Shown in pieces: positions 1 through 14,888 of a stretch of DNA of 23,714 nucleotides. Every line of letters begins with the position of its first letter. Position 1 is the stretch's first letter. Origin of the DNA: a virus; the IMG/VR virus record IMGVR_UViG_3300020468_001082, positions 1 through 23,714 of that record; one strand, written 5' to 3'. Position numbers and translations under genes: made by a program. Below the pieces are notes generated by a model. It did not search any database. It was not told where the DNA came from and worked only from the letters and a program-made list of their open reading frames with translations.

Positions 1-420
1 GGTGTTATCTTCATGAGTGAGATTGCTATTGAATTTCAAAAGCACGGAGTAAAAGAACCAATTGCTATACCACAGAATATTGAACTACGTTTCTGGTTAG
101 GAATAATTGAAGAAGCAGATTATTTCTTAGGTTGTGATAGTGTAGGTCAACATATGGCTTATGCTTTAGACAAACCGGCAACAGTGGTAGTTGGAAGTAC
201 GTTTAAAGAAAACATTTCTTACCCAGATGTAAAAAACTTTGATGTATTAGACATGGGTGAAGGTGCTAGAGTCTACAGTCCAATTAGAATTACAATGGAC
301 GAATTATCAGACAGAACTAATGAAGGCATTATGTGGATGAATGATAAGATTGAAGAAGTAATTGTTGAAAGTTGCTTGAAAGGTGCTGGACTCAAGAAGG
401 ATGACAAAAAGAAAAAGTAG
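1..420 (+). CDS. GT9-like glycosyltransferase (ADP-heptose:LPS heptosyltransferase type), 3' part only
   Basis: The reading frame is open from base 1, so the gene starts upstream of the window and only about the last 139 codons are visible. The visible part resembles the C-terminal nucleotide-sugar-binding half of glycosyltransferase family 9: the segment EADYFLGCDSVGQHMAYAL followed by KPATVVVGST matches the family's 'xxDSGxxHxAxAxxxPxVxLFGxT' region, where Asp, Ser and His lie near the donor sugar nucleotide. GT9 enzymes move heptose from ADP-heptose to LPS core. The tail is Lys/Asp-rich (KKDDKKKK). The last 20 bases overlap the next gene, suggesting translational coupling. Together with hldE and hldD further along, a heptosyltransferase role is attractive, but the acceptor and the exact sugar are inferred. 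Another GT-B glycosyltransferase family is possible because the N-terminal half is absent. Confidence 0.65.
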   Translation, partial: GVIFMSEIAIEFQKHGVKEPIAIPQNIELRFWLGIIEEADYFLGCDSVGQHMAYALDKPATVVVGSTFKENISYPDVKNFDVLDMGEGARVYSPIRITMDELSDRTNEGIMWMNDKIEEVIVESCLKGAGLKKDDKKKK

Positions 421-1300
421 ACTTTTCGTTTTTGGTTGTAGTTTTACAATGTATGCGTGGCCAACGTATGCAGATTTCTTAGGATACGAATTTGACCATT
501 ATGAGAACTGGGGATTTCCTGGTTTAGGTAACCGTGCGATAGCAGAAAGAGTTGCCGAATGTCACATAAAAAATAAATTTACAAAAGATGATACAGTGAT
601 TGTACAATGGAGTACACACATAAGACATGACTGGCATACATTTAAAAGAAGTAAATTACAACGTGGTGATGCTATTAGAAACACAGAAGAGATAGGATGG
701 AAAACTAAAGGCAGTATTTTTAATTACTTGAATAGAGAAAATTGTTATGATGACAAATGGATAGAAACTTTTTGGGATGAACATAGTTATTTTATGCATG
801 GACAAAATAATATTATTTTAACACAAGGATTATTAGAAAGTACAGACTGCACTTATAGAATGTTAAGCATAGGAGACATGGAAAAGTTAGGAACTGATAT
901 GCCGGATTTCCCAGGCTTCGGAGAAACAACACAAGAACAAGTTGATGTGTATAAAGACAAAACAGAATTACAAGTATATAAAAATATAGATAAGACTAAC
1001 TGGTTAGAACCTTTAGGATTGTTTGCATGGAAAAATAAAAAAGAACAATATACATTTTATGACCCTAATACTAAAAAAGATTGGGTTGAAATGCACCCTA
1101 GTCATTGGCAACATTACAAATATTGCAATGAAATAGTTCGTCCAAGTTTGGGTATTAAACACAAAAATAACGATAAACAAGTTAGTACAGTTAATACTTT
1201 AGATAAACTTAAAGTTGAAAATAAGGACCTTTTAAGTTTTGAAAAAGGCATTTTAGAAAATATAGTTGAATATAAGCATATAGGATATTTAGGATTTTAA
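401..1300 (+). CDS. SGNH/GDSL-hydrolase-like protein
   Basis: A protein of about 299 aa. The N-terminus LFVFGCSFT looks like block I of SGNH hydrolases, with the Ser of GCSFT as candidate nucleophile. A middle segment (VIVQWSTHIRHDW) sits where block III is expected, and EMHPSHWQHYKYCNEIV near residues 228-245 resembles the block V region carrying the catalytic His. SGNH enzymes are esterases or acetyl transfer/removal enzymes acting on sugars and lipids. No signal peptide or membrane segment is seen. I chose ATG 401, seven residues before the GCSFT-containing strand; a GTG at 383 in frame would add six residues, and neither has a well-spaced Shine-Dalgarno. It overlaps the GT9-like gene by 20 bases and is followed after 1 base by the carbamoyltransferase, so the three look co-transcribed. 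The substrate is unknown; a glycan O-acyl group is inferred from context. Confidence 0.6.
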   Translation: MTKRKSRLFVFGCSFTMYAWPTYADFLGYEFDHYENWGFPGLGNRAIAERVAECHIKNKFTKDDTVIVQWSTHIRHDWHTFKRSKLQRGDAIRNTEEIGWKTKGSIFNYLNRENCYDDKWIETFWDEHSYFMHGQNNIILTQGLLESTDCTYRMLSIGDMEKLGTDMPDFPGFGETTQEQVDVYKDKTELQVYKNIDKTNWLEPLGLFAWKNKKEQYTFYDPNTKKDWVEMHPSHWQHYKYCNEIVRPSLGIKHKNNDKQVSTVNTLDKLKVENKDLLSFEKGILENIVEYKHIGYLGF

Positions 1301-1301
1301 T

Positions 1302-3116
1302 ATGAAGAAACCAAGTCAGTGGATAGCGGGAATAGCCAGAGGACATAACGCAGGTGTATGTTTGTTGAAAGATGGTAAAGTAGTATTTTCTATAGAAGAA
1401 GAAAGATTAAGTAGACACAAATACGACGGTGGACCATATGCGTCCATGATGAAAATTTTAGACTATACGGACAAATTAGATTATCTTGTTATAGCACATA
1501 CACAAAACCTAGATGCAACAGCAGGTAAAGTAGACTTTACAGGTGATGATGTTTATACAGGACTTGCACGTAAAATGGGATTAATTGATCGCAATCCTAA
1601 ATTGTTACCTAAACACCCACAAGTTGTTGACTTGAGTTATTTCCATCACAAATTACACGCCGCATTAAGTTTTTACAATAGTGGATTTGAAGATGCAGTT
1701 GCAGTCATTGTTGACGGAGCAGGAACTTTCTTTAGTGCAAACATGGGAGGAGATCCAAACAACAACACAACACTATGGGAAACTGAATCAATTTATAACT
1801 GCGATTATCCTGTAGATTTTAAAACCTTATATAAACACTTAGGTACAACAGGACCATTGCTAGGAGCAGAATATCAAAACTTTAGCGGAGACTTTTTTGC
1901 AGAAAAAGATAACATACCAGAAATTGTAATAAGCGAAACAGCAGGAATAGTAAAAACATATGAAGCGGTAACAGACTATTGTGGATTTAGTTTTATTGAA
2001 GCAGGAAAAACAATGGGACTATTCCCATATGGAGAACATCCTAAAGAAGTTCCTGCATTATTTACGAAAGGACAAACACATCCATTAAGTGATAGAAATG
2101 TTATTGTACCAACATATCCAAACGGTGCATTAGTGAATAGAAATTATTTTGAATTTTTAAGAGATAGACATGACCAAGATGAAGATGTTACAAAATTAAA
2201 AAATCGCAGAGACATGGCTTATGCAGTACAAACACAAACACAAGAACAAGTTACAAATTTAATTAAAAAAGCAGTAGCAATGAGCGGTAAGAAAAATGTT
2301 GTATTAAGTGGCGGTTATGGATTAAATTGTGTTGCAAATTATCATTACCTTGAAGCATTAAAAAATGAAGGAATTGACTTATATGTTGAACCCGTAAGCA
2401 ATGATGCAGGAACGGCCATGGGTGCGGCACTGTTACAATACAGAACTATTGCAAGAGATAGGACTATAAATGAACAAGTTGATACTTTGTACAATGGTCC
2501 TATCTATAATTACGATGAAAAAACATTTAAAAAATTAGCAGAAACTTATGAAGCAAAAATTGACACTGAAATTGAAAATGATTCAATAGTAGAACTTTTA
2601 AACAACAAAAATATTGTTGCTATATTCCAAGGTGGAAGTGAAAATGGTCCACGTGCTTTAGGTAATAGAAGTCTATTGTTTGATCCTAGTTATGCTGATG
2701 GTAAAGATTATGTTAATAAAGTAAAACGTAGAGAATATTTTAGACCATTTGCAGGAACAATTCTGGAAGAAGATGCACATGAATGGTTTGATTTAAGAGG
2801 CATGAAAAGTTCTCCAACAATGATGTACGCAGTAAACTGCCAACCAGGCATGGGTGAAAAAATTCCTAGCATTATTCACGTAGATGGTACTTGTAGAATA
2901 CAAACTGTAAATGAAAAACAGAACAAAAATTACTATGATTTGATCAAAGCATTCAAGGAAAAAACAGGACTTCCAATAGTGTTTAACACTTCCTTCAATT
3001 TAGGTGGTGATCCACTGGTAGAAACACTAGAAGATGCACTGCATACCCTAGCAAAAAGCGACATAGAGTACCTATATTTGCCTGAGTACAAGACACTTTT
3101 TACAATTTCCAACTAG
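1302..3116 (+). CDS. NodU/CmcH-family O-carbamoyltransferase
   Basis: 604 aa, the usual length for this family (NodU, NolO, TobZ, CmcH). These enzymes make carbamoyl-adenylate from carbamoyl phosphate and ATP in an N-terminal Kae1-like domain and pass the carbamoyl group to a hydroxyl in the C-terminal domain. Visible signatures: GIARGHNAGVCLL near residues 10-22; HHKLHAAL at 115-122, the HxxxH metal-binding pattern; VVLSGGYGLNCVAN near 334 and SNDAGTAMGAA near 366, the ASKHA nucleotide loops; GGSENGPRALGNRSLL near 444; RREYFRPFAGTIL; and FNTSFNLGGDPLVE near 561. AGGA at 1291-1294 is a good ribosome-binding site 7 bases before the ATG. The gene looks intact. In bacteria such enzymes decorate Nod factors, antibiotics and LPS heptose (WapO of Pseudomonas); here the acceptor is unknown. 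Family assignment is firm. Confidence 0.93.
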   Translation: MKKPSQWIAGIARGHNAGVCLLKDGKVVFSIEEERLSRHKYDGGPYASMMKILDYTDKLDYLVIAHTQNLDATAGKVDFTGDDVYTGLARKMGLIDRNPKLLPKHPQVVDLSYFHHKLHAALSFYNSGFEDAVAVIVDGAGTFFSANMGGDPNNNTTLWETESIYNCDYPVDFKTLYKHLGTTGPLLGAEYQNFSGDFFAEKDNIPEIVISETAGIVKTYEAVTDYCGFSFIEAGKTMGLFPYGEHPKEVPALFTKGQTHPLSDRNVIVPTYPNGALVNRNYFEFLRDRHDQDEDVTKLKNRRDMAYAVQTQTQEQVTNLIKKAVAMSGKKNVVLSGGYGLNCVANYHYLEALKNEGIDLYVEPVSNDAGTAMGAALLQYRTIARDRTINEQVDTLYNGPIYNYDEKTFKKLAETYEAKIDTEIENDSIVELLNNKNIVAIFQGGSENGPRALGNRSLLFDPSYADGKDYVNKVKRREYFRPFAGTILEEDAHEWFDLRGMKSSPTMMYAVNCQPGMGEKIPSIIHVDGTCRIQTVNEKQNKNYYDLIKAFKEKTGLPIVFNTSFNLGGDPLVETLEDALHTLAKSDIEYLYLPEYKTLFTISN

Positions 3117-3154: not shown

Positions 3155-3574
3155 ATGTTTAGTTTAGATAAGTTTTTTGGCAAGGGCACTAAAGGTACTG
3201 TACTACTTAAAAATGGTACAAATTTTAGTTATCACGGTCCTTGGAAAAAAGTAACAACAAATACTGAAATAGATAGGTTCTTAGTCAATGATTTTTGTGC
3301 CGCAGAATATACAATAGTCATAGATTTATCATCAAGTGCTAAAGAAATAATAAAGGCACTTGTAGTAGCAGGTCCTAATGATGCAAACGTAACCATATAT
3401 GGTAGATCAAATTTAAATCAAGACCTATTAACGTTAACAGCAACCGTAAGTGATTCAACTGTGACATTAATTGCAAATGCACACACATCAGCAGATAGTT
3501 CAGAACTACGTGGATCTAAGATTATATTTTCAGCAAATTACTATCAAAACCAAAATATACCAATAGCAGGGTGA
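3155..3574 (+). CDS. Small late protein, probably virion-associated, function unknown
   Basis: 139 aa; I do not recognise the family. It starts MFSLDKFFGKGTKGTVLLKN, is rich in Thr, Ser, Asn and Val with alternating hydrophobic residues, and looks like a small all-beta protein. No signal peptide, membrane segment, cysteine cluster or enzymatic motif is seen. It is preceded by its own late promoter and a strong AAAGGGG ribosome-binding site and followed by another late promoter and two fibre-like genes, so a structural or fibre-associated role is inferred from position and composition only. It could be a fibre chaperone or a decoration protein. Confidence 0.6.
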   Translation: MFSLDKFFGKGTKGTVLLKNGTNFSYHGPWKKVTTNTEIDRFLVNDFCAAEYTIVIDLSSSAKEIIKALVVAGPNDANVTIYGRSNLNQDLLTLTATVSDSTVTLIANAHTSADSSELRGSKIIFSANYYQNQNIPIAG

Positions 3575-3613: not shown

Positions 3614-4654
3614 ATGGCAATCACATATAATCCATTTGAATCAGATTACGGTTTTAAAAGTCCAGGCTTTTCTGTCGACGTCAACGGAAATGTTACACTT
3701 AGAAGTGTTACGTACACACTAGAACAAGAAGAAGCGGCAGTTGATAACCAGTTTGTAGTAAGACAACTAGGTGCTGTTCCTTCAGCAGAATTTACTATGG
3801 ATGAACAGTATGTAACTGGAACACAGATTTTACAAAACAATCCAACAATTACACTTACAAGAGGTACTACATATTCATTTAAGTTAATGACGTTACCCCA
3901 ACTTACTTTCAGTTTATTTTTTAGGACTGATGATAACCCTGTCGTTAACTTACAAGGTATTGGAAATTGTGCATACTACAACGATGGTGTTAGCCACAAT
4001 ACTAGTGCAACACCTCCTGTTACAACAACAGGTGAACAAGCACAAACAAAAGCAAATGATACAACAACTTTAAATTTAAGTCCAACTGCTCCTACTAATT
4101 TATATTATGGAAACGCCGACGGCAGTGTGTTTGGAACAATTAACACAGTTGACCCAACTATCACTGGTGTAGGTAGTTTTAGTAGTTTACTAGTTACAGG
4201 TGATGTTACTATGCAAGGTCAAGATGCTGATTTAGTGTTATCACCACAAGGTGCATACGGTACTGTTACTATAAATCCAGCAGGTGAAGGTACTATGAGT
4301 AACATGAACGTAAATGCACTTACTATGACAGCAAGTGAAAACGTTACATTCAATGGTGCAAACGCAAATTTAACACTTACACCAACAGGAACAGGTGCTA
4401 TTACTTTAACAAGTGCGGCGGCAGGTACAATTAATAACATGAGCATAGGACAAACTACACCTAAAGACGGATCGTTTGTAAACTTAAATGCCAGTTCTGG
4501 GTTAAATAACACTGTAATTGGAGATGTGACACCCAAGACTGCTACGTTTACATCTGCTGTTACTCAAGCAACTCCAACCACAGAGTTGCAGATAACGAAT
4601 AAAAAATATGTAGATAGCAAGGCAACCGCACTAGCGATTGCACTAGGAGTATAA
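3614..4654 (+). CDS. Tail-fibre-like structural protein with internal repeats
   Basis: 346 aa, very rich in Thr, Asn, Ser and Gly, as phage fibre proteins are. Residues about 195-285 contain two related segments of about 45 residues: GDVTMQGQDADLVLSPQG... and ENVTFNGANANLTLTPTG..., each followed by a short 'TI/VxN/S xxGT(M/I)xNM' stretch, consistent with a repetitive beta structure. Then come two short repeats of the form TTPKDGSF / VTPKTATF. The C-terminus ends in ELQITNKKYVDSKA, a motif type (NKKYVD) common near the C-terminal end of phage tail-fibre repeats, followed by a short possible trimerising helix. GGAG lies 8 bases before the ATG. The gene ends six bases before the giant structural gene, so the two are co-transcribed. 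Assignment to a particular fibre (long, short or whisker) is not possible from the sequence. Confidence 0.7.
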   Translation: MAITYNPFESDYGFKSPGFSVDVNGNVTLRSVTYTLEQEEAAVDNQFVVRQLGAVPSAEFTMDEQYVTGTQILQNNPTITLTRGTTYSFKLMTLPQLTFSLFFRTDDNPVVNLQGIGNCAYYNDGVSHNTSATPPVTTTGEQAQTKANDTTTLNLSPTAPTNLYYGNADGSVFGTINTVDPTITGVGSFSSLLVTGDVTMQGQDADLVLSPQGAYGTVTINPAGEGTMSNMNVNALTMTASENVTFNGANANLTLTPTGTGAITLTSAAAGTINNMSIGQTTPKDGSFVNLNASSGLNNTVIGDVTPKTATFTSAVTQATPTTELQITNKKYVDSKATALAIALGV

Positions 4655-7600: not shown

Positions 7601-10600
7601 TCAAGCGGTTACATAGAAGGTGATCGTATTAAGGTTGACGGTTTTGATGTGGGCGGACAAACAGTAACAAATGACTTGTTCATGAAAGTAACTGCAACTG
7701 GTACAGGAGGTTCTATAACTTCAGTAACAGCAAGTGGTACTGCTCCAGATGCCAGTGTAAACTATGCAAGTGTGGCTTACACATCAAACACTGCGGCAGG
7801 TGTTGGTGCTGACTTTAACGTTGAAAGAGTCGGAACAGGTGCAAACGTATTCATACCATCAGGTGGTACAGGCTATCTTGCAGGAGAAACATTTACAGTG
7901 CTTGGTTCAGAACTAGGTGGTCAAGACGGAGTAAACAATTTAACAATTACTGTTGCTACAATTGATATAAACGGAACAATTTTAACAGTTACTGATGCAG
8001 GTACAATGGTTAATACTAGAACCATTCCAAACTGGACTTCAGTTACAAACATAGTTGGTAATGGTGCAAAATTTGGTGTTAGTTTAGCAACACAAACTTA
8101 CACACTAGACCAAATTGACGTTGCTGGACAAGATTATGGTGTTGATCAAACTATTATAATTAGGGGTACAGACCTAGGTGGTTCAACTCCGGCAAATGAT
8201 GCCACACTTACAATAACAGCAGTAGGATCAAGTGGCGAAATTACTGCCGTAAATTTAACAGGTACTGGAGCGGCTGGTACAGGAAGTTACACAAATGTTT
8301 CTGGTAACAATGATTCCAACAGTGGTGCAAATGCAGTGTTTAATATTACACGTTCAGGCGGAACTTACAGTATTGTTACAGCAACCGATAACGGTAGTGG
8401 TTACAAAAAAGGTGACAGAATTGTTATTCCTGGTAACCAATTAGGAGGTGCAACTCCTACAAACGATTTAACTTTACGTTGTGATTTAAATTCAACTGAA
8501 GGTGACTTTTTAAATATACAAATTAGTGGAACAGCAGTTGCTGGAAATACTGCGGCGATGTACAGTTCAGTAACAATGTCTGAAGCGGCTACGCAGAATA
8601 TTTCACCAAGTACAACGATATCATATAGTTCATTGGCAACTGTACAGTGTGACTTTCCAACTGCACACGGACTTGTTCCAGGAAACACTTTCTTAATAAC
8701 TGTTGAATCAGACGATACGGTTAATAACCACAGTTTAGCGGCTGGTCCGTTCAGTGCAACGGCAGTTCCAACAACGAAAAGATTACAGTATCAGTGTAGA
8801 GCACCTGGTACAATTGACACTGGTACAGCAAACAGTGACCCAATACAGGGTTTCATTTATCCAAGACCAGATGCATTCTTTGTACACAGACCTTATGATG
8901 GAGGTGTACAATTAGGTACTGGTGGACCACAACACGGTTCACAAGCAATTAGACAGAGTAAAAAATATATTAGATACCAATCAGGTAAGGGTATCATGTA
9001 CACAACGGGTGCCTTGTTTGCTCCAAGTTACGATCTATTACAAGTGACTGCAAACGCAACAGCAGTTGGTTCAACAATTACTTGTACAACAGATGATACG
9101 GATCATGGTTTACAAGTGGGTGGTGGTATTAGACTAATAGGTATTAACACTGTTGGTTATGATGGCGACTACATTGTATCAGATGTAAACAATGAAAGAG
9201 AATTTGAAGTATTAGCCACAAGTGCATTAGGATCAACAACTCCAGAATTAAGTGCCAAGGCACAGGTATCAGTAAAAACATTCCATGGTGCAACTGTACG
9301 TTCAGGATGTTTTGATGATCAAAACGGTATTTTCTTTGAATATGATGGCACACAATTTAGTGCTGTTCAAAGAACTGCAACATTACAGTTAGCAGGTGTT
9401 GTTGATATAGCGGTAGATACCAATAGTGTTACTGGTACTGGTACAAGATTTAGAGAACAATTAAAAGCAGGTGACAGAATTGTTATCAAAGGTATGACAC
9501 ACGTAGTAACGGATGTCATTAGTAATACAAGTATGTCAGTTGCACCTGACTTTAGAGGTGTTACAGATGTTCTTTCAAGTAAGTTATGTTTGATTCAAGA
9601 TAAGAAAACAGAACAAAAAGACTTTAACAGAGATAAAATGGACGGTACAGGCGCAAGTGGATACAACATTGACATCAGTAAGATGCAGATGGTTGGGATA
9701 CAATACAGTTGGTACGGTGCTGGATTTATCGATTATATGCTCAGAGGAGCAGATGGTAACTTTGTGTTTGGTCACAGAATGAGAAACTCAAACGTAAACA
9801 CAGAAGCATTTATGAGAACGGGTAATATGCCGGTTAGATATGAGGTAACCAACGAAGGACCTGTTGGTAAATTAAGTGCAGACGTAACAGATGTTGCAAC
9901 AGTATTACCGTTAGAAGACGCTTCTTTCTTCCCACCAGAAGGAGGAATAGTTTACATAGATAATGAGATGATACAGTTTACTGGTGTTGATGGGAAAAAT
10001 CTTACAGGTTGTACACGTGGCGCACAGATGTCTAACTTTGCCTCAGGCGCAACAAGAACATATTCGGCGGGAACAGCAGAACCACATACTAGAAACACTG
10101 GAGTACCGTTAATTAGTAACACAATTAGTCCAATTATATCACACTGGGGATCTGCTTATATTACAGATGGTGGATTTGACTTTGATAGAGGATATTTGTT
10201 TAGTTATAAAGCAACAGGAACAAGTGTAAGTACAACAAGATATACTTCTTTCTTGATTAGACTAGCACCTAGTGTATCAAACGCGATTGTTGGTGACTTA
10301 GGTGAAAGAGAATTGTTAAACAGAGCCCAGTTGCTACTTGATGGACTAGAGGTTACTTCAGAACCAAATGCTTCAGGACAAAAAGGTGGTATTGTTATTG
10401 AAGGTGTGTTGAATCCACAGAATTATCCTGTTAATCCAAATGACATTGGTTGGGAAGGTATATCAGGACTAGCGTCAGGAGGTCAACCAAGTTTTGCTCA
10501 GATCGCCGCGGGTGGATCTGTTAACTGGAACGGTGGTGCAACACAGACAACTGCAACAGCAACAGTGGCAACAGATATCGACAGTGGTTTTAACTATACC

Positions 10601-11323
10601 AGAGGACAACAGTACAATGATAGATATAGTCCTATTACGATTGACTACTCACCAATACAAACAGTTGGTACTCCGTTGGTAGGATCATATATAGAATCAC
10701 AAAATCCAACTAATGCCTTTAATGCAAACCAATATACTGTAAGTGGAGTAGGACCATTAGAAGGTAACGGCTTTAGATATAGAATATTCTACACAGGTCC
10801 TAATGGAACTAACAGAGCAAGTGGCTTATCTACGACAAGCACAAATTTGAAATTTATTTACAAAACGTACACAGGATTTACAAACAAATTATTGTTCACA
10901 AAAGCATCTTGGGACGCCTCAGGAGCAGGACAAGGTACAGAGGTTGCATCAAGTGACTTGAATTGGCCAGCAGGTACATTTGTACAGTCGGTTAATGCAT
11001 TAAATCACAGTGGTACAGAGTTTTACGAAGTTACATTTAACCAAACATCGGTTGCAACTATAAGTGCTGGTGATACTGTGACGTTCTTATTTGGTAATCC
11101 ACCTTATGCACAGCCAGGTGAAACAATATTTTCATTTATTGCACAACCAGGTGAAAGAGCAACACTTGATCTAGGTGACATTAAAGAATTAACTAATACA
11201 ACACTAGGTGGAAGAGGTACTTTTCCAAATGGTCCAGACGTATTAGCGATTAACGTTTATAAAACTGCGGGATCGGCCGTAGATGCAAATATTATTCTAC
11301 GTTGGTCGGAGGCACAGGCTTAA
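4661..11323 (+). CDS. Giant virion structural protein, probable tail-fibre or appendage protein (2220 aa)
   Basis: 2220 aa, Thr/Gly/Asn/Ser-rich, with no signal peptide or membrane segment. Regions in order: an N-terminal module (about residues 22-310) with RRPNAYWLIQNNVEFIKDEV and FDLRYNGNEQGRYLASTYWDG; a second divergent copy (about 396-560) with NNKEFIKDEAVAWVL and HDMQYGGNEKTRLQASKFWDG; a beta-rich stretch; five tandem repeats of about 87 residues (about 866-1300); then a non-repetitive C-terminal half with QYSWYGAGFIDYMLRGADGN near residue 1685 and the YIDNEMIQFTGV / LTGCTRGAQ motif, as found in large structural proteins of marine T4-like phages. AGGAG (4645-4649) precedes the ATG by 11 bases. 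The 3' end overlaps the cupin gene on the other strand by 32 bases. Virion location is inferred from family resemblance and late-gene context; the exact part of the particle is unknown. Confidence 0.8.
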   Translation: MAKKKVNEYVFQTGIPFSDSRRPNAYWLIQNNVEFIKDEVRAYINDNITRQAVTSQFTVTNATYDPTTGFMVATIGSHNLLPGDQVIFATGSVTFTTAQDGGSTQYAYPRATGAGTTTGWDPWYNKPVVITATGSDSITCKVGKTINQTAHTFVSATSLGVTNAFKDYVNSNDAKCERDMGYNLIGGDPKNPVQDQPGGLLFDLRYNGNEQGRYLASTYWDGTIPQIDGDRNPERAAKQFCTWLIQTHIFGNTAYTTKQSPVVTSQTINLEYVAETDASAKVEEILDDVIGEVIYFGLDNMPALSNAQVSSVRFPTKVTLDNVLLITNTTTNEVLFNFSDPTAGGSTAYVTDSIEFTPSFEYFKKFLENTDTITTVFFDKSTENKTYLANARTIITNNKEFIKDEAVAWVLDKVNTATGGSTFDGYTYTAALIERDTATEIDGFVHDMQYGGNEKTRLQASKFWDGPTPLITGTRTPEKELKEFVRDLINNYILTKAAYSSKQSPSVTTQNFNGSNAELGATDRITELTTIITTTITGGLTTLPILDKPIINALTDKIQIFVDQGDLQVRPYNFGTDAIERQRVANSLSMLDADFEYGLQPTKWQAIGTQRGYPSIYEVPGTDTQVVSVTTDASAGSQGVGQSLITVTTASAHGFEPGVPITIKALANSVAGASRAEGSFIINTVPTNFTFTYFAKAKVGTTNPQTLSTYYTQLRQGGFYTGASIGGQNVEFSIISQGSNGSFIATLGIPSGSDQIAYTGTAPEIGAPLQAVGGGITLGSQVTGTVGTGGIVITPVTTTDVASGSNQIVVENASGVVPGLGLNRGDGFATFVTSIVGNTVTLSDALTADYVGNTVLYQGLTGSNDSSIGNGATFDVSRSSGTYTVVLNQPGQDYKLGDNVVISGQQLGGADTTNDLRLIVTGVDTGGELQTFDDEGSAFDGNGTFTNVAGELQGGIGTGGNFDITYTNNVYSVSMASPDTSSGYIEGDRIKVDGFDVGGQTVTNDLFMKVTATGTGGSITSVTASGTAPDASVNYASVAYTSNTAAGVGADFNVERVGTGANVFIPSGGTGYLAGETFTVLGSELGGQDGVNNLTITVATIDINGTILTVTDAGTMVNTRTIPNWTSVTNIVGNGAKFGVSLATQTYTLDQIDVAGQDYGVDQTIIIRGTDLGGSTPANDATLTITAVGSSGEITAVNLTGTGAAGTGSYTNVSGNNDSNSGANAVFNITRSGGTYSIVTATDNGSGYKKGDRIVIPGNQLGGATPTNDLTLRCDLNSTEGDFLNIQISGTAVAGNTAAMYSSVTMSEAATQNISPSTTISYSSLATVQCDFPTAHGLVPGNTFLITVESDDTVNNHSLAAGPFSATAVPTTKRLQYQCRAPGTIDTGTANSDPIQGFIYPRPDAFFVHRPYDGGVQLGTGGPQHGSQAIRQSKKYIRYQSGKGIMYTTGALFAPSYDLLQVTANATAVGSTITCTTDDTDHGLQVGGGIRLIGINTVGYDGDYIVSDVNNEREFEVLATSALGSTTPELSAKAQVSVKTFHGATVRSGCFDDQNGIFFEYDGTQFSAVQRTATLQLAGVVDIAVDTNSVTGTGTRFREQLKAGDRIVIKGMTHVVTDVISNTSMSVAPDFRGVTDVLSSKLCLIQDKKTEQKDFNRDKMDGTGASGYNIDISKMQMVGIQYSWYGAGFIDYMLRGADGNFVFGHRMRNSNVNTEAFMRTGNMPVRYEVTNEGPVGKLSADVTDVATVLPLEDASFFPPEGGIVYIDNEMIQFTGVDGKNLTGCTRGAQMSNFASGATRTYSAGTAEPHTRNTGVPLISNTISPIISHWGSAYITDGGFDFDRGYLFSYKATGTSVSTTRYTSFLIRLAPSVSNAIVGDLGERELLNRAQLLLDGLEVTSEPNASGQKGGIVIEGVLNPQNYPVNPNDIGWEGISGLASGGQPSFAQIAAGGSVNWNGGATQTTATATVATDIDSGFNYTRGQQYNDRYSPITIDYSPIQTVGTPLVGSYIESQNPTNAFNANQYTVSGVGPLEGNGFRYRIFYTGPNGTNRASGLSTTSTNLKFIYKTYTGFTNKLLFTKASWDASGAGQGTEVASSDLNWPAGTFVQSVNALNHSGTEFYEVTFNQTSVATISAGDTVTFLFGNPPYAQPGETIFSFIAQPGERATLDLGDIKELTNTTLGGRGTFPNGPDVLAINVYKTAGSAVDANIILRWSEAQA
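7256..8566 (+). repeat. Five tandem protein-coding repeats of about 260-270 bases inside the giant structural gene
   Basis: Each unit begins with a G-x-G-A-x-F-x-V/I strand, then a 'GxxYxxGDxIxIxG' segment, then a hallmark LGG(x4)ND: QLGGADTTNDL, DVGGQTVTNDL, ELGGQDGVNNL, DLGGSTPANDA and QLGGATPTNDL. It ends with a 'GxIxxVxxxGxA' strand. Units start near 7256, 7519, 7790, 8046 and 8312. DNA identity between units is clearly lower than protein similarity, so the duplication is old. A repetitive shaft or beta-prism stack is the natural reading. Confidence 0.8.
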
Positions 11324-11699
11324 CTTCTTCTGGTTTTTGACTATCACCAGGTATAATCCTATAATTATCTTCAACAGAGTCAGCAGTACTAACCTCAGTT
11401 ACTGAACTATTAGGTTCTAGTGCTTCTAATTGGTGTGGTTGTAGTGGAGGATTGTGCCAAGTATCCCCAGGATTGAGTTCTTTACTATAAAGTTTCGCTT
11501 CTTGAGTGTCTATATACCTTAATAAAAATTTTCCTTGATTAACAAACCAAGATTCTTCCTTCTCTTTATGGAAGTGCATAGAAAACTTTGCACCTTTCTT
11601 TTCAAATACCATAATTTTACCACAATATTTGTCATTGGTTGCCCATATCAATTCATATCCCCAACCCTTAGGCACTTTTCCTTCTAATCGATTACTCAT
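11292..11699 (-). CDS. Cupin-fold protein (sugar-phosphate isomerase/epimerase-like)
   Basis: 135 aa, a single small cupin barrel. Cupin motif 1 is visible as HFH at 42-44, Glu49 and Gly56 (HxHx4Ex6G). Motif 2 is LNPGDTWHNPPLQPHQLEA (76-94) with His89 as the last metal ligand. The end carries VTEVSTADSVEDNYRI, the 'EVST..xxDxxR' pattern seen in mannose-6-phosphate isomerase-type cupins. The residues for a divalent metal are all present. It is the last gene of the heptose operon; its ATG overlaps the stop of the 243-aa gene in ATGAGTAA (8 bases). A role in isomerising or modifying an activated heptose is inferred; a RmlC-type epimerase is less likely because the chain is short. Its 3' end overlaps the giant fibre gene by 32 bases on the opposite strand. 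Confidence 0.8.
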   Translation of the reverse strand: MSNRLEGKVPKGWGYELIWATNDKYCGKIMVFEKKGAKFSMHFHKEKEESWFVNQGKFLLRYIDTQEAKLYSKELNPGDTWHNPPLQPHQLEALEPNSSVTEVSTADSVEDNYRIIPGDSQKPEEVKPVPPTNVE

Positions 11700-12423
11700 C
11701 TAGGTATTTTCCTTTAATTGAATTATAACTTCCTTTAAATTTACTTTGAAACTTAAGGTTTGACTTGTAACTCTCAATAAATTTTGCATCATCTTCATCT
11801 TTTACCGTATAATTTATTTTATCTAATTTTACAGGCTTGTACATTGCAATTGGCGTGCCTTTTTTCAGTAAAAATTCACCTTTTTTCTTAATTAATAATT
11901 GTTGGTTAATTTGGTGACTCCATTCTGTATATGTTAGTCCTGGAAGACACTCAAAATCTTCACTAAAATTGTAAAACATAGGCAGTTGCATCATGCCCCA
12001 GCCTTTACTTGTTTTTACTCTCCACGGACAATCTGTTTTTGCTACAACCATTACTTCATTTTTTACATTTTTTGGTGTATGGTCTAGAAACTGTTCTTTG
12101 AAATGCAATGACATTGTAAAACCTTCATTGCTACATTTCCAACCAAAGTCTTTTTCACTGACATTAAGATAAAAGTCTGCCCATAATGGAATAACAAAGG
12201 CGTCTTTGTAAAAATCAACTATGCCAGGACAATTTTTAAACGTTCCTTTGTCAAATGGATTGTCTTCTTCCAGCCATCTTGGCATTTTCTTGAACCAATC
12301 AGGAAGAAACTTGTTTGCTGGTTGTACTGGTTCTAATTCCGTAAGGCCAGGAACAGTACTCCACCACTCAACTTTAGGTTTTTTACTGCCTATCAATCCA
12401 GTCAATAACGTATTCAAACTCAT
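11692..12423 (-). CDS. Conserved-looking phage protein of unknown function (243 aa) within the heptose operon
   Basis: I do not recognise a functional family with certainty. Features seen: an aromatic-rich N-terminus with VEWWSTVPGL and LPDWFKKMPRWL; a FKNCPGIVDFYKDAFVIPLW segment near residues 62-81; then DCPWRVKTSKGWGMMQLP near 131-148, a conserved-looking core of Cys-Pro-Trp-Arg plus Gly-Trp; and KKGTPIAMYKP near 187-197 before a Lys-rich tail. No signal peptide, membrane segment or nucleotide-binding loop is seen. Similar proteins of unknown function occur in marine phages by my recollection, which should be checked. Its first 41 bases overlap the 3' end of hldD and its stop overlaps the cupin ATG, so it is translated as part of the operon. 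AGGA lies about 11 bases before the ATG. The context suggests a job in sugar or glycan handling, without proof. Confidence 0.75.
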   Translation of the reverse strand: MSLNTLLTGLIGSKKPKVEWWSTVPGLTELEPVQPANKFLPDWFKKMPRWLEEDNPFDKGTFKNCPGIVDFYKDAFVIPLWADFYLNVSEKDFGWKCSNEGFTMSLHFKEQFLDHTPKNVKNEVMVVAKTDCPWRVKTSKGWGMMQLPMFYNFSEDFECLPGLTYTEWSHQINQQLLIKKKGEFLLKKGTPIAMYKPVKLDKINYTVKDEDDAKFIESYKSNLKFQSKFKGSYNSIKGKYLDE

Positions 12424-13201
12424 AGTTTAAAATATCCTGTAATTTCTTATTATCAGCACAGGTATATGCTTGATAATTTTTTGCTATTTCTTTTGGCATT
12501 GGAATAAGGTCAACACCTACACTATATTTGTGTGCAATTTTATATGCAATGGTTTTAAAACTTACTGCTTCTCCTGTACCAACGTTGAAAATACCACTTT
12601 GATCAACGTCTAACATTTTTTCGTGTATTTTACAAACGTCTTCCACGCTTACAAAATCACGTTTGTAGTTTCCACTGTTTTCAAACAGTTTAATATCTTG
12701 ATCTGCTTTTGCTTGTTTGGTAAATTTACTTACAGGACTCATTTGATCACCTTTATGATCTTCTCCATTCCCATAAACATTAAAATATCTAAAACCTTGT
12801 ATGCTGATTTTAAAGTCTTTAATATAACTTTGCACAAACCTATCAACAAGATACTTTGACCAGCCATATGGACTTTCAGGATGTAAAGGTGCGTTCTCAT
12901 TAAAGTTATCAGTATTGCCATATAAGTTTGCAGTACTAGAGTATTGCATACTTGTACCCATCATGTCACAAAGTTCTATAAGTTTCATAGTGAAATCTGT
13001 GTTTTGTGTCATGATCTTTTCAACATCTGTTTCTGTGGTACTGCTTATGGCACCACAATGTATGACTCTATCACATTGTGAAGGATCAGGATACTTATTA
13101 GGTATGTAAGTCCACCCTTCGACCTGATGTCCTGCATTCACTAGATGACTTGCAACTGCATTTCCTATAAAACCATCTGTACCAGTAACTAAAATTTTCA
13201 T
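12383..13201 (-). CDS. hldD: ADP-L-glycero-D-manno-heptose 6-epimerase-like SDR enzyme (HldD)
   Basis: 272 aa, an extended short-chain dehydrogenase of the NAD(P)-sugar epimerase type. Residues 7-13 give the GxxGxxG nucleotide loop (GTDGFIG). GAISSTTETD near 50-59, SSTANLYG at 88-95 and Y112-G-W-S-K116 (YxxxK) give the catalytic Ser/Thr-Tyr-Lys set. GFRYFNVYGNGEDHKGDQMS near 134-155 and KRDFVSVEDV near 182-191 are closely HldD-like (bacterial RFNVYGP.E.HKG.MASV). HldD converts ADP-D-glycero-beta-D-manno-heptose to the L-glycero form, the last step of ADP-heptose synthesis. It is shorter than E. coli HldD (310 aa). Its ATG overlaps the hldE stop by four bases (ATGA). The neighbouring hldE makes the assignment stronger; specificity for the heptose epimer rather than a related sugar is inferred. 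Confidence 0.88.
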   Translation of the reverse strand: MKILVTGTDGFIGNAVASHLVNAGHQVEGWTYIPNKYPDPSQCDRVIHCGAISSTTETDVEKIMTQNTDFTMKLIELCDMMGTSMQYSSTANLYGNTDNFNENAPLHPESPYGWSKYLVDRFVQSYIKDFKISIQGFRYFNVYGNGEDHKGDQMSPVSKFTKQAKADQDIKLFENSGNYKRDFVSVEDVCKIHEKMLDVDQSGIFNVGTGEAVSFKTIAYKIAHKYSVGVDLIPMPKEIAKNYQAYTCADNKKLQDILNYEFEYVIDWIDRQ

Positions 13202-14448
13202 TGTTTCATCTTTTCTATTGTTTCAGTTGTACTATGTCCTTCAATAGTTGGAAAAATTACAACTTTTGCAAGTTCATTACCAACAGTGGTTTCAACTGTA
13301 TAGTCTCCACCTTTAACAATAATATCAGGACGTATTTTCACTATTTCATCTATTGGTGTATCACCGTCAAATATAACAACATCGTCAATAAATCCTAATT
13401 GTTCCAAAGTTTCTTTACGTTTAAATTCGCTATTAATGGGTCTAGTTTCTCCTTTTAAACGTTTTACACTACTGTCGCTATTAATACCTACTATCAAACG
13501 TTTACCAAGCGTTGCGGCGTGTCTAAGAAGTTTTAAATGGCCAGTATGCAGTATATCAAACACTCCATTAGTCCATACAACTCCTCTGTTTAAGTCATCT
13601 TCTGTTACCACAGTGACTCCTCTTTTTTCAACTACACGTGAAGCACCATAACAAGCAAGGCTACATGAATCTGGAACACTTTTTCCTTGGTTTATTCCAT
13701 GTGCGATTATTGCCATTACAGTATCGCCTGCTCCTGACACATCAGCGACCTCTTGTACTTCTTCTTTACAATGCCAATTATCTTGTGCATTGATAACGTG
13801 TATTCCGTCTGCACCTGCTGTAACAACAAGCCAGTCCCATTTATATTTTAATAAATTTTCTCTTGCATTTTCATATGAAAATTCTCCAAACCATTCTACA
13901 TATTCTTTCATGTTTGGTTTAACTAAAAAAGCACCAGTGTAGAATGAAGGATCTTGTTTAGGATCAACTAAAACCATTGCACCTTTTTCTAATAATTTAC
14001 TTACAGTATCTTTCCTAACTGCACCTTTATTATAATCACTGATTACAACTGTATCATTTTGCTGAACAGCATTTAAAAATTCTTTTTCTGCGTCATCACA
14101 TTCACATATTGAATCAGTATCGAATCTACAAATTTGTTGTCCTTGTGTGCTTACTATACGAACTTTACTTGTTGTGGCTTCTAAACAACTTGTTAAACAG
14201 GAACAAACATTTGTGACTAATAAAAGTTCTAAAAATTTATTTCCTTGTTTGTCTTTACCTAATGGTCCATACAAATCAACCGGACCATTTATACTTGCAA
14301 GATTTACTGCTAAATTTCCTGCACCGCCAACATTACATCTATAATCATTTTCTAATAAAACCGGAACAGGCGCTTCTGGACTTATACGGTCCACTGATCC
14401 TATTCTCCATTCGTCAAGCATTACGTCACCGTAGACTAAAATGGCCAT
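13198..14448 (-). CDS. hldE: Bifunctional heptose-7-phosphate kinase / heptose-1-phosphate adenylyltransferase (HldE)
   Basis: 416 aa (E. coli HldE is 477). The N-terminal PfkB/ribokinase domain (about 1-285) shows GDVMLDEWRIGSVDRISPEA with the HldE-typical RISPEAPVPV, NVGGAGNLAVNLA near 39-51, and the catalytic loop DVSGAGDTVMA near 233-243 with its Asp. The C-terminal nucleotidyltransferase domain (about 290-416) begins VVWTNGVFDILHTGHL, including the HxGH motif, and continues with VGINSDSSVKRLKG, RPINSEFKRKETL and IIVKGGDYT. It phosphorylates D-glycero-D-manno-heptose 7-phosphate at C1 and, after removal of the 7-phosphate, joins it to AMP. Both domains look complete. A GGAG ribosome-binding site (14454-14457) sits 5 bases before the ATG, and the ATG shares one base with the NUDIX stop (TAATG). 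GmhA and GmhB are not in the window. Confidence 0.95.
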   Translation of the reverse strand: MAILVYGDVMLDEWRIGSVDRISPEAPVPVLLENDYRCNVGGAGNLAVNLASINGPVDLYGPLGKDKQGNKFLELLLVTNVCSCLTSCLEATTSKVRIVSTQGQQICRFDTDSICECDDAEKEFLNAVQQNDTVVISDYNKGAVRKDTVSKLLEKGAMVLVDPKQDPSFYTGAFLVKPNMKEYVEWFGEFSYENARENLLKYKWDWLVVTAGADGIHVINAQDNWHCKEEVQEVADVSGAGDTVMAIIAHGINQGKSVPDSCSLACYGASRVVEKRGVTVVTEDDLNRGVVWTNGVFDILHTGHLKLLRHAATLGKRLIVGINSDSSVKRLKGETRPINSEFKRKETLEQLGFIDDVVIFDGDTPIDEIVKIRPDIIVKGGDYTVETTVGNELAKVVIFPTIEGHSTTETIEKMKQ

Positions 14449-14888
14449 TACTTCTCCAATAGTTGAATTAAATCAAATACAGTTTCTAATTTAGTTTGAT
14501 TTGTTTTGTTTTGTAAAGTGTTTTTAAGTCCCATGTGTAATGGTTTTGGCCATTTATTAAAACTTGCCCATGCATAACCATCATGTTCTTCATTTAATAT
14601 AGGAATAAACTCTTCGTTGACAACAACAAGATATGTGTGGAATTTAAATTTTTCATCTGTGCTTACAAAAGTTTCTAAAGGAATTGTTTTGGTAATTTTT
14701 GGTAAGTTGCCAATTTCTTCTTTTATTTCTCTCTGTAGGCTTTCCCATGGAGTTTCTTTGGTGTTGTTAGTACCACCTACTAAACCCCATACGTTGTTTT
14801 GTTTGCTCTGTACTCTATGTAAAAATAAAAATCTTTTGGTTTTTAATGAATAGAATAAGGCTCCGCTACAAATAATATCTTGACTCAT
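14448..14888 (-). CDS. NUDIX hydrolase
   Basis: 146 aa. The Nudix box GX5EX7REUXEEXGU is present at residues 39-61: Gly39, Glu45, then REIKEEIG at 53-60 with the metal-binding Glu57/Glu58. Only the final hydrophobic position is replaced by Asn-Leu. The upstream strand LFLHRVQSKQNNVWGLVGG is typical. Such enzymes hydrolyse nucleoside diphosphates linked to another group, for example nucleotide sugars, ADP-ribose or oxidised dNTPs. It is the first gene of the minus-strand operon with hldE, hldD, the unknown gene and the cupin, starting 12 bases after the gp15 stop and sharing one base with the hldE ATG. Position suggests a nucleotide-sugar or pathway-intermediate substrate; the sequence does not settle it. 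No Shine-Dalgarno is evident, and a 7-bp inverted repeat overlaps its start. Confidence 0.9.
   Translation of the reverse strand: MSQDIICSGALFYSLKTKRFLFLHRVQSKQNNVWGLVGGTNNTKETPWESLQREIKEEIGNLPKITKTIPLETFVSTDEKFKFHTYLVVVNEEFIPILNEEHDGYAWASFNKWPKPLHMGLKNTLQNKTNQTKLETVFDLIQLLEK

Follow-up and report, generated by a model that had tools for sequence, protein, structure and literature searches.

A glycosyltransferase and carbamoyltransferase pair beside Cys/Gly-rich proteins: a candidate virion-protein maturation cassette in tailed phages

What does a phage decorate when it encodes a glycosyltransferase and a carbamoyltransferase among its tail-fibre genes? The window analysed here, an entire IMG/VR record of 23,714 bases, begins with three consecutive plus-strand reading frames for a GT9-like protein, an SGNH-like protein and a carbamoyltransferase, joined by a 20-base overlap and then a 1-base gap (Table 1). 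An initial annotation had described this arrangement, which the ORF positions bear out, and had assigned the products to the GT9-like, SGNH-like and NodU-family carbamoyltransferase classes, which domain matches and predicted folds support. A 2220-residue virion structural protein separates these genes from a second enzyme block on the opposite strand. The small conserved protein that follows the carbamoyltransferase adjoins it in most non-cyanophage relatives but gave no family match in Pfam or PHROG searches; a family search with the next product likewise gave no match. The T4-type late promoter motif TATAAATA occurs once in the window and once in the relative L006, fewer sites than expected by chance, and late expression therefore gets no support from it.

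Table 1. Genes at and downstream of the enzyme block, in window coordinates
Feature	Positions	Strand	Evidence
GT9-like (GT-B) glycosyltransferase, C-terminal 139 codons	1..420	+	PF01075 E=0.09, phrog_8954 E=1e-60, relative's fold
SGNH/GDSL-fold protein (hydrolase or O-acyltransferase class)	401..1300	+	motifs, model, Foldseek
NodU/TobZ-family carbamoyltransferase, Kae1-like and YrdC-like halves	1302..3116	+	PF02543, PF16861, motifs
Small conserved protein, probable fibre component	3155..3574	+	synteny
Probable fibre or virion protein	3614..4654	+	synteny
Virion structural protein, 2220 aa	4661..11323	+	phrog_5838 E=5e-241
Cupin protein, counterpart of cyanophage T4-GC 307	11292..11699	-	PF00190 E=3e-7, phrog_7851
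phrog_7084 protein in minus-strand run with cupin, HldD, HldE	11692..12423	-	phrog_7084
HldD-like ADP-heptose 6-epimerase	12383..13201	-	E. coli HldD best PDB match, E=8e-39
HldE-like fused heptose-7-P kinase and heptose-1-P nucleotidyltransferase	13198..14448	-	TIGR02198 E=1e-68, TIGR02199 E=2e-44, both under curated cut-offs
NUDIX hydrolase, ends minus-strand run	14448..14888	-	PF00293 E=2e-13

The GT9-like frame is open at its 5' end because the record begins within the gene. Its Pfam match is weak: the fragment and its relatives reach at most 18 bits, under the PF01075 gathering cut-off of 22 bits. Run against the PDB, a profile of the GT9 alignment yielded chance matches only, so that the assignment depends on fold. 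The annotation had proposed completing the gene. A full-length relative (L006, positions 8154-9116) gave a structure model (pLDDT 91) with the predicted fold of a GT9 enzyme, its closest matches being 3tov, WaaC, WaaF and TibC, all GT9 proteins or heptosyltransferases. The DSxGxH motif of the family, which lies within the window's fragment, aligns with DTGLSH/DSGLMH, the D-[ST]-x-x-x-H donor-lobe motif of the WaaC/WaaF type. The N-lobe catalytic Asp of WaaC/WaaF (D13) is not conserved and an invariant Arg (GGAGR) is aligned there, so that the sugar and the mechanism may differ. By predicted fold the window enzyme is most likely nearest to the heptosyltransferases, with ADP-heptose as its putative donor.

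The overlap with the SGNH-like gene is counted from its ATG at 401; an in-frame GTG lies at 383. In L006 the corresponding ATG is at 9100, while GT9 codes up to 9116 and has its stop at 9119. The SGNH-like product matched nothing in Pfam, PHROG, NCBIfam or named phages. The best Foldseek matches of its model (pLDDT 79) were all SGNH acylhydrolases (E 5e-4, probability 1.00; TM about 0.53-0.63 on the shorter target). Segments FGCS..T, GxGN and ExHPS are invariant in the family and may correspond to SGNH blocks I, III and V, with Ser14, Asn44 and His232 invariant and ExH instead of DxxH at the acid position.

In the carbamoyltransferase both domains, Carbam_trans_N (PF02543, 81.5 bits, E=1e-22) and Carbam_trans_C (PF16861, 194.7 bits, E=1e-57), score over their cut-offs, and PHROG 1601 is matched at E=2e-161; against the NodU equivalog NF041651 the protein reaches 142 bits, for a curated cut-off of 1000. 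It has the invariant motifs of the solved carbamoyltransferases (H15, H115/H116/H119, D138, GPRALGNR, KxREyFRPFA, HVDxxcRxQTV, FNTSFN), and those for metal, ATP and carbamoyl phosphate (HHxxH, D, GPRALGNR, KxREyFRPFA, NTSFN) are invariant across 20 relatives. In all 155 loci that have both, GT9 and carbamoyltransferase genes are on one strand and 0-3 genes apart, an adjacency that is thus not due to chance. The SGNH gene is present in 95 of the 160 loci with a carbamoyltransferase, some of which hold two copies. The three genes had been read as one decoration block; the pair is indeed fixed, whereas the SGNH gene is optional, and most loci have GT9 and carbamoyltransferase alone between fibre genes, with or without SGNH.

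Is the decoration then tied to heptose, as had been suggested? The GT9 fold speaks for this link, as do the window's HldD- and HldE-like proteins, whose best matches are heptose enzymes. The HldD-like protein matches TIGR02197 at E=1e-63 (215 bits, under the 275-bit cut-off) and keeps Y..K and FRYFNVYG. HldD/HldE are however not constant, and the expected co-occurrence was found in part: 34 loci have them and 17 that span carbamoyltransferase to neck genes do not, the loci being defined partly by the presence of HldD/HldE. When a neck gene is required in the locus the count is 3 with and 17 without, a drop that occurs because most HldD/HldE-positive loci stop before the neck genes. HldE is missing from the 219-kb and 161-kb contigs, which have just a nucleotidyltransferase domain of another kind. 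The ADP-heptose pathway (GmhA, HldE, GmhB, HldD) is incomplete, with HldE and HldD only in the window record, no GmhA (SIS_2) in 50 related records and a GmhB-like phosphatase in only some relatives, adjoining the pair in L175, L239 and L240. The last is an archaeal MAG (Woesearchaeota, DPANN) that has the core trio besides the phosphatase. We considered its heptose operon as strong support and downgraded it to weak, given the measured base rate of archaeal HldA-type kinases, which are common in its phylum.

Much stronger than the link to ADP-heptose genes is that between the pair and a triad of Cys/Gly-rich proteins. Encoded by three successive genes just upstream of GT9 and outside the window, they contain about 10% Cys and, for the most part, 15-20% Gly; the window phage is expected to have them from relatives whose carbamoyltransferases are 91-95% identical. 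Taking genes with at least 7.5% Cys as Cys-rich, we found exactly three of them upstream of GT9 in 55 of the 57 carbamoyltransferase-seeded viral loci that extend 6 kb or more on that side, and none of the 177 Cys-rich genes in the 80 loci lies elsewhere than in the 6 kb preceding GT9. A reciprocal search with the Cys/Gly-rich alignment alone gave 78 loci, with GT9 in 68 of 68 informative ones and carbamoyltransferase in 64, the other four ending before that gene is reached (the A3 search is biased towards near relatives of its query). An inverted enzyme block, seen in 10 loci, still adjoins the triad. All 11 phages or contigs with the triad have GT9, and 10 named phages without GT9 have no triad homologues. 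Phages and one archaeal MAG alike show the linkage. The pair of AG-345-P14 and AG-345-O18 adjoins Cys-rich proteins that match neither the triad profile nor Pfam or PHROGs, and in one lineage, L073/L074, a scan of the whole 345-kb contig showed the pair and no Cys-rich protein. A Gly_rich_2 match, Phage_tail_APC genes (tail-fibre assembly chaperones) in between and large fibres on both sides suggest that the triad proteins are probably tail-fibre-tip proteins. Several of their Cys positions are nearly invariant. Their profile found nothing in the PDB, and we found no description in the literature of this unusual probable fibre-tip type.

Taken together, the gene order, folds, conserved motifs and triad linkage lead us to propose a cassette for the maturation of fibre-tip proteins through glycosylation, probably with heptose, and carbamoylation, a proposal whose chances we regard as even. 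The GT9-like enzyme and the NodU-family carbamoyltransferase would form a virion-protein maturation pair, in which the former may move a sugar onto the Cys/Gly-rich tip proteins encoded a few genes upstream. This sugar would most likely be heptose, activated by HldE/HldD where the phage encodes them and drawn from the host where it does not. The carbamoyltransferase could then O-carbamoylate it from carbamoyl phosphate and ATP via carbamoyl-adenylate, and the SGNH protein, where there is one, would add an acyl group or take one off. Fibre tips so decorated might be changed in stability or host binding, and thus in adsorption. Adjacency to a gene is no proof of substrate, and we infer which acceptor and sugar are used, in what order the steps run and how adsorption is affected. 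Virion glycoproteins, which the initial annotation had listed as an alternative, become the better reading; modified phage DNA was also considered as acceptor and no support was seen. More tentatively, and with rather more doubt than belief, we can envisage a mobile protein-maturation cassette that tailed phages have in common with at least one DPANN archaeal MAG. In it the carbamoyltransferase and a GT9-like enzyme whose active site has changed would jointly act on Cys/Gly-rich adhesins to give a novel carbamoyl-sugar or Cys-linked modification.

The initial annotation had instead favoured LPS, and the pair could place carbamoylated heptose or another sugar on host LPS or capsule and so block superinfection. 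The phage's own HldD/HldE and a GT9 fold closest to LPS heptosyltransferases agree with this, as does the 7-O-carbamoyl heptose of P. aeruginosa LPS (PMC7168646); in their treatment of these clusters, Sullivan 2010 and Iyer 2021 (PMC7824862) put neighbouring cyanophage genes down to LPS or capsule, and that treatment holds no mention that we found of the Cys/Gly-rich neighbours. Yet the block sits among the tail-fibre genes, essentially always by the three Cys/Gly-rich proteins even if inverted, 17 loci from carbamoyltransferase to neck genes have no HldD/HldE, and the archaeal MAG also has the core trio, all of which argue against LPS as the main acceptor. To our knowledge archaea have no LPS. 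Synechococcus phages likewise carry the block although the LPS of marine Synechococcus is free of heptose (PMC4515613), and the glycosyltransferases in the HldE-bearing sugar clusters of S-SM2, P-TIM68, S-T4 and Sf-CH8 are different ones, none of them a GT9 of the window's family. We thus consider host-surface decoration unlikely, if still worth weighing.

Two further readings have in our view only a small chance of being right. Carbamoyltransferases, 2OG-Fe(II) oxygenases, halogenases, cupin and HAD phosphatase might together make a halogenated amino-acid or sugar compound: Trp halogenases and 2OG oxygenases adjoin the pair in S-SSM7 and in the 345-kb contig, the solved relatives are antibiotic carbamoyltransferases, and Iyer 2021, in its account of part of the cyanophage cluster, offers capsule decoration or a secondary metabolite, the latter for S-SSM6a. 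Halogenases and oxygenases are however optional, and the constant triad would be left unexplained. The second, equally improbable, has cysteines rather than hydroxyls as acceptors, through S-glycosylation or S-carbamoylation. HypF carbamoylates a Cys thiol and the carbamoyltransferase is weakly similar to it, and high Cys is shared even by the Cys-rich proteins outside the triad profile; the O-carbamoyltransferases TobZ, GdmN and NodU nevertheless match far better, the nearly invariant Cys positions are also compatible with metal binding or disulfides, and we know of no GT9 enzyme that glycosylates Cys. That the pair merely hitchhikes in a hypervariable cargo slot unrelated to the fibre genes beside it is very improbable, for although the slot also holds SGNH, nitrilase, halogenases, oxygenases and a second carbamoyltransferase and one GT9-positive lineage does without Cys-rich proteins, the linkage is reciprocal, survives inversion, and extends to Cys-rich proteins outside the triad profile and to the archaeal MAG.

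If the fibre-tip maturation proposal is correct, many marine and freshwater tailed phages would decorate their host-recognition tips post-translationally with their own enzymes, and genes filed under LPS or secondary metabolism would be virion-maturation genes. It would also account for heptose-type enzymes in phages of cyanobacteria with heptose-free LPS. Candidate acceptors are the Cys/Gly-rich proteins of the cultured phages P-SSM2, S-CAM1 and S-SSM7.

Among known systems the nearest are the cyanophage clusters T4-GC 302-308 (P-SSM2, S-CAM1, S-CAM3, S-SSM7/S-SSM6a, Sf-FS3), which comprise GT9-like, carbamoyltransferase, split HldE, HAD phosphatase, cupin and HldD genes and, like the window's relatives, have Cys-rich genes upstream. 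Carbamoyltransferase abuts split hldE in P-SSM2, S-CAM1 and Sf-FS3; in S-SSM7 the two are five genes apart in one cluster. The window differs in its fused HldE, in having HldD/HldE on the opposite strand past the 2220-residue protein and in the inserted SGNH gene, and its uncultured relatives differ in having no psbA, which we looked for in 28 contigs to assign a cyanobacterial host. The GT9-like gene of these clusters is annotated 'hypothetical'. The O-carbamoyltransferases TobZ, GdmN, NovN and NodU share the two-part architecture and conserved motifs and act on antibiotics or Nod factors. WapO, by description, combines a NodU-family carbamoyltransferase with heptose pathway genes for 7-O-carbamoylation of P. 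aeruginosa LPS core heptose, whereas the phage acceptor is probably a virion protein. A protein acceptor is found with TibC, which heptosylates the adhesin TibA, an autotransporter (PMC4358343). The phage GT9 differs from it in the Arg at the WaaC-type catalytic Asp position, and its acceptor is putative. We know of no carbamoyltransferase in the TibC system, but both enzymes have a GT-B heptosyltransferase-type fold, and TibC is encoded with its own adhesin, as the phage GT9 would be.

The window, a complete 23,714-base IMG/VR virus record, is a fragment of a T4-like myovirus carrying tail sheath, tail tube and neck genes. Its coordinates confirm the layout of GT9-like, SGNH-like and carbamoyltransferase genes, with their short overlap and gap, reported in the initial annotation. 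Fibre genes, including that of a 2220-aa virion protein, separate this block from a run of cupin, unknown, HldD-like, HldE-like and NUDIX genes on the opposite strand. The HldE of the window is a fused kinase-nucleotidyltransferase; that of cyanophages is split, with reversed gene order.

Coordinates of the features in the window and in loci of relatives (L-numbers)
Feature	Location	Remark
GT9-like gene	window 1-420	5' end cut by record start
SGNH-like gene	window 401-1300	20-base overlap with GT9, counted from SGNH ATG
Carbamoyltransferase	window 1302-3116	1-base gap after SGNH-like gene
Fused HldE	window 13198-14448	
Cys/Gly-rich triad	L006:3362-6283; L005:5172-7969; L002:7861-10724	examples
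Inverted GT9-(SGNH)-carbamoyltransferase block	L120, L122, L123, L125, L127, L128, L131, L144, L150, L151	
Gly-rich, nearly Cys-free neighbour	L168:6565-7743; L169:4579-5742	S-CAM8; S-SSM5
Halogenases and oxygenases around the pair	L074:3204-12972	
Woesearchaeota cassette	L240:8037-13305	
HAD phosphatase (T4-GC 306)	L002:14912-15256	
Nitrilase-type hydrolase	L006:7309-8118; L010:7268-8098	

GT9 and carbamoyltransferase are constantly accompanied by probable fibre-tip proteins and not by LPS genes. Directly upstream of GT9 in relatives lie three genes (the triad) for proteins of about 240-400 aa with about 10% Cys, mostly 15-20% Gly and a nearly invariant CCC motif, with tail-fibre assembly chaperones between and after them; the first protein of L006 matches Gly_rich_2 (E=5e-6), and two triad proteins were detected in P-SSM2. 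Such a Cys content is unusual for virion proteins assembled in the cytoplasm. The triad lies outside the window, and we infer it for the window phage from relatives with carbamoyltransferases 91-95% identical. Exactly three Cys-rich genes occur in 55/57 viral loci whose upstream sequence extends for 6 kb or more, and the 177 Cys-rich genes of 80 loci all lie upstream of GT9, none more than 6 kb away. When the Cys/Gly-rich alignment served as sole query, the reciprocal search gave 78 loci from the best 80 matches, a sample favouring close relatives; GT9 was present in 68/68 informative loci and carbamoyltransferase in 64 of these, the other four ending before it. Inversion of the enzyme block with respect to the triad is seen in 10 loci, where the two remain adjacent. 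Our literature search, of incomplete coverage, found no published description of the triad.

Among named phages the triad profile matched S-CAM1, S-CAM3, P-SSM2, S-SSM7 and Sf-FS3, each of which has GT9; ten GT9-negative phages gave no match. Scanned for Cys content over nearly its whole length, the S-CAM1 genome has the triad as its only proteins above 8% Cys; the same scan found none in S-SM2, S-CAM8 or HTVC008M. In AG-345-P14 and AG-345-O18 the genes ahead of the pair encode Cys-rich proteins with a Cys content of 9-11%, one of them 758 aa long, without a match to the triad profile, Pfam or PHROGs. The carbamoyltransferase of GT9-negative S-CAM8 and S-SSM5 adjoins a 30-33% Gly, nearly Cys-free protein, which suggests that carbamoyltransferase goes with Gly-rich fibre proteins and GT9 with Cys-rich ones.

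The initial annotation had suggested that the three-gene block and the ADP-heptose cassette form a two-part system, to be checked by co-occurrence across phages. Co-occurrence is constant for the pair, on the same strand with 0-3 genes between in 155/155 loci holding both, but not for the remainder: SGNH is present in 95/160 carbamoyltransferase loci (duplicated in some), and HldD/HldE relatives were found in 34 loci, which form 21 clusters at 85% identity, and are missing from 17 (11 clusters) that reach the neck genes, counts being of contigs rather than independent events, with clusters supplied where computed. Whole-contig searches gave an HldE-type match in 32/50 records and GmhA in none of the 50; in 219-kb and 161-kb contigs HldE was missing, and the match was to a nucleotidyltransferase domain of another kind. 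S-SM2, P-TIM68, S-T4 and Sf-CH8 carry HldE within other sugar clusters, without GT9 of this family. The heptose link is real, not obligatory. The closest relatives also have a nitrilase-type carbon-nitrogen hydrolase directly upstream of GT9 (PF00795, checked on L006 only).

A scan of 84,980 prokaryotic species genomes gave 9 loci, eight of which appear to be phage sequence placed in MAGs by binning, all with Cys-rich genes. The ninth, L240, is a contig of archaeal chromosomal character in a Candidatus Woesearchaeota MAG and encodes, in order, a 591-aa Cys/Gly-rich protein (probably membrane-anchored, with a hydrophobic N-terminal segment), GT9, carbamoyltransferase and a GmhB-like phosphatase, the last also following the pair in L175 and L239. 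This may be a binning error; however, archaeal genes flank the cassette on the same contig, namely a TruB/dyskerin-type protein (Pfam) and what we take to be enolase, L10e and UvrC. The gmhA-hldD-hldA-gmhB-hldC operon of this MAG adds little, because HldA-type kinases are frequent across the phylum; GT9 of the GGAGR type scored highly in 1/371 genomes, this MAG.

Family searches gave no match for the SGNH gene; its model (pLDDT 79) matches SGNH acylhydrolases by fold, and Ser, Gly/Asn and His blocks are conserved, the acid position reading ExH instead of DxxH. Both Pfam domains of the carbamoyltransferase score well over cut-off; the enzyme also matches antibiotic carbamoyltransferases of solved structure, and its family motifs are invariant across 20 relatives. 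Best matches of HldD and HldE are heptose-specific, with scores below NCBIfam equivalog cut-offs. The cyanophage 'phosphoheptose isomerase' T4-GC 306 is, by sequence, a short HAD phosphatase (EcbF/BcbF-like) and likely misannotated.

We propose that the pair would glycosylate and carbamoylate the Cys/Gly-rich tips, because of its constant triad partner, the heptose-free LPS of Synechococcus, archaea, which are not known to have LPS, and the TibC precedent. Heptose would be the most likely sugar; the HldD/HldE matches and the GT9 fold support this part of the initial annotation, and the loci without HldD/HldE count against it. Donor, linkage, order of steps and biological effect are what we infer. 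One exception to the triad linkage, a 345-kb contig (L073/L074), has the pair and no Cys-rich protein on scan; four Trp halogenases (PF04820) and two 2OG-Fe(II) oxygenases surround its GT9 and carbamoyltransferase. Iyer 2021 (PMC7824862) reads the same cyanophage cluster as serving capsule decoration or production of a halogenated secondary metabolite. Sullivan 2010 (PMC3037559) reads it as LPS genes, and LPS was also the acceptor favoured initially; the constant fibre-tip neighbours and a Synechococcus LPS without heptose (PMC4515613) argue against this.

The GT9-like enzyme can be set beside known heptosyltransferases. The GT9 fragment of the window matches Pfam weakly (E=0.09), and L006, whose carbamoyltransferase is 95% identical, holds a full-length GT9 whose model (pLDDT 91) has as best solved structures a Veillonella GT9, WaaC, WaaF and TibC, the last a heptosyltransferase acting on protein. 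The invariant DSxGxH of the family aligns with the donor-lobe DTGxxH of E. coli WaaC/WaaF, whereas their N-lobe catalytic Asp (MGD/VGD) is replaced by an invariant Arg (GGAGR). The modelled enzyme thus resembles heptosyltransferases in fold, but its donor and mechanism may differ from theirs. TibC, which has a GT9-type fold, is a precedent for heptosylation of a protein adhesin (PMC4358343), and the phage enzyme, sharing this fold, would likewise have a protein as its presumed acceptor.
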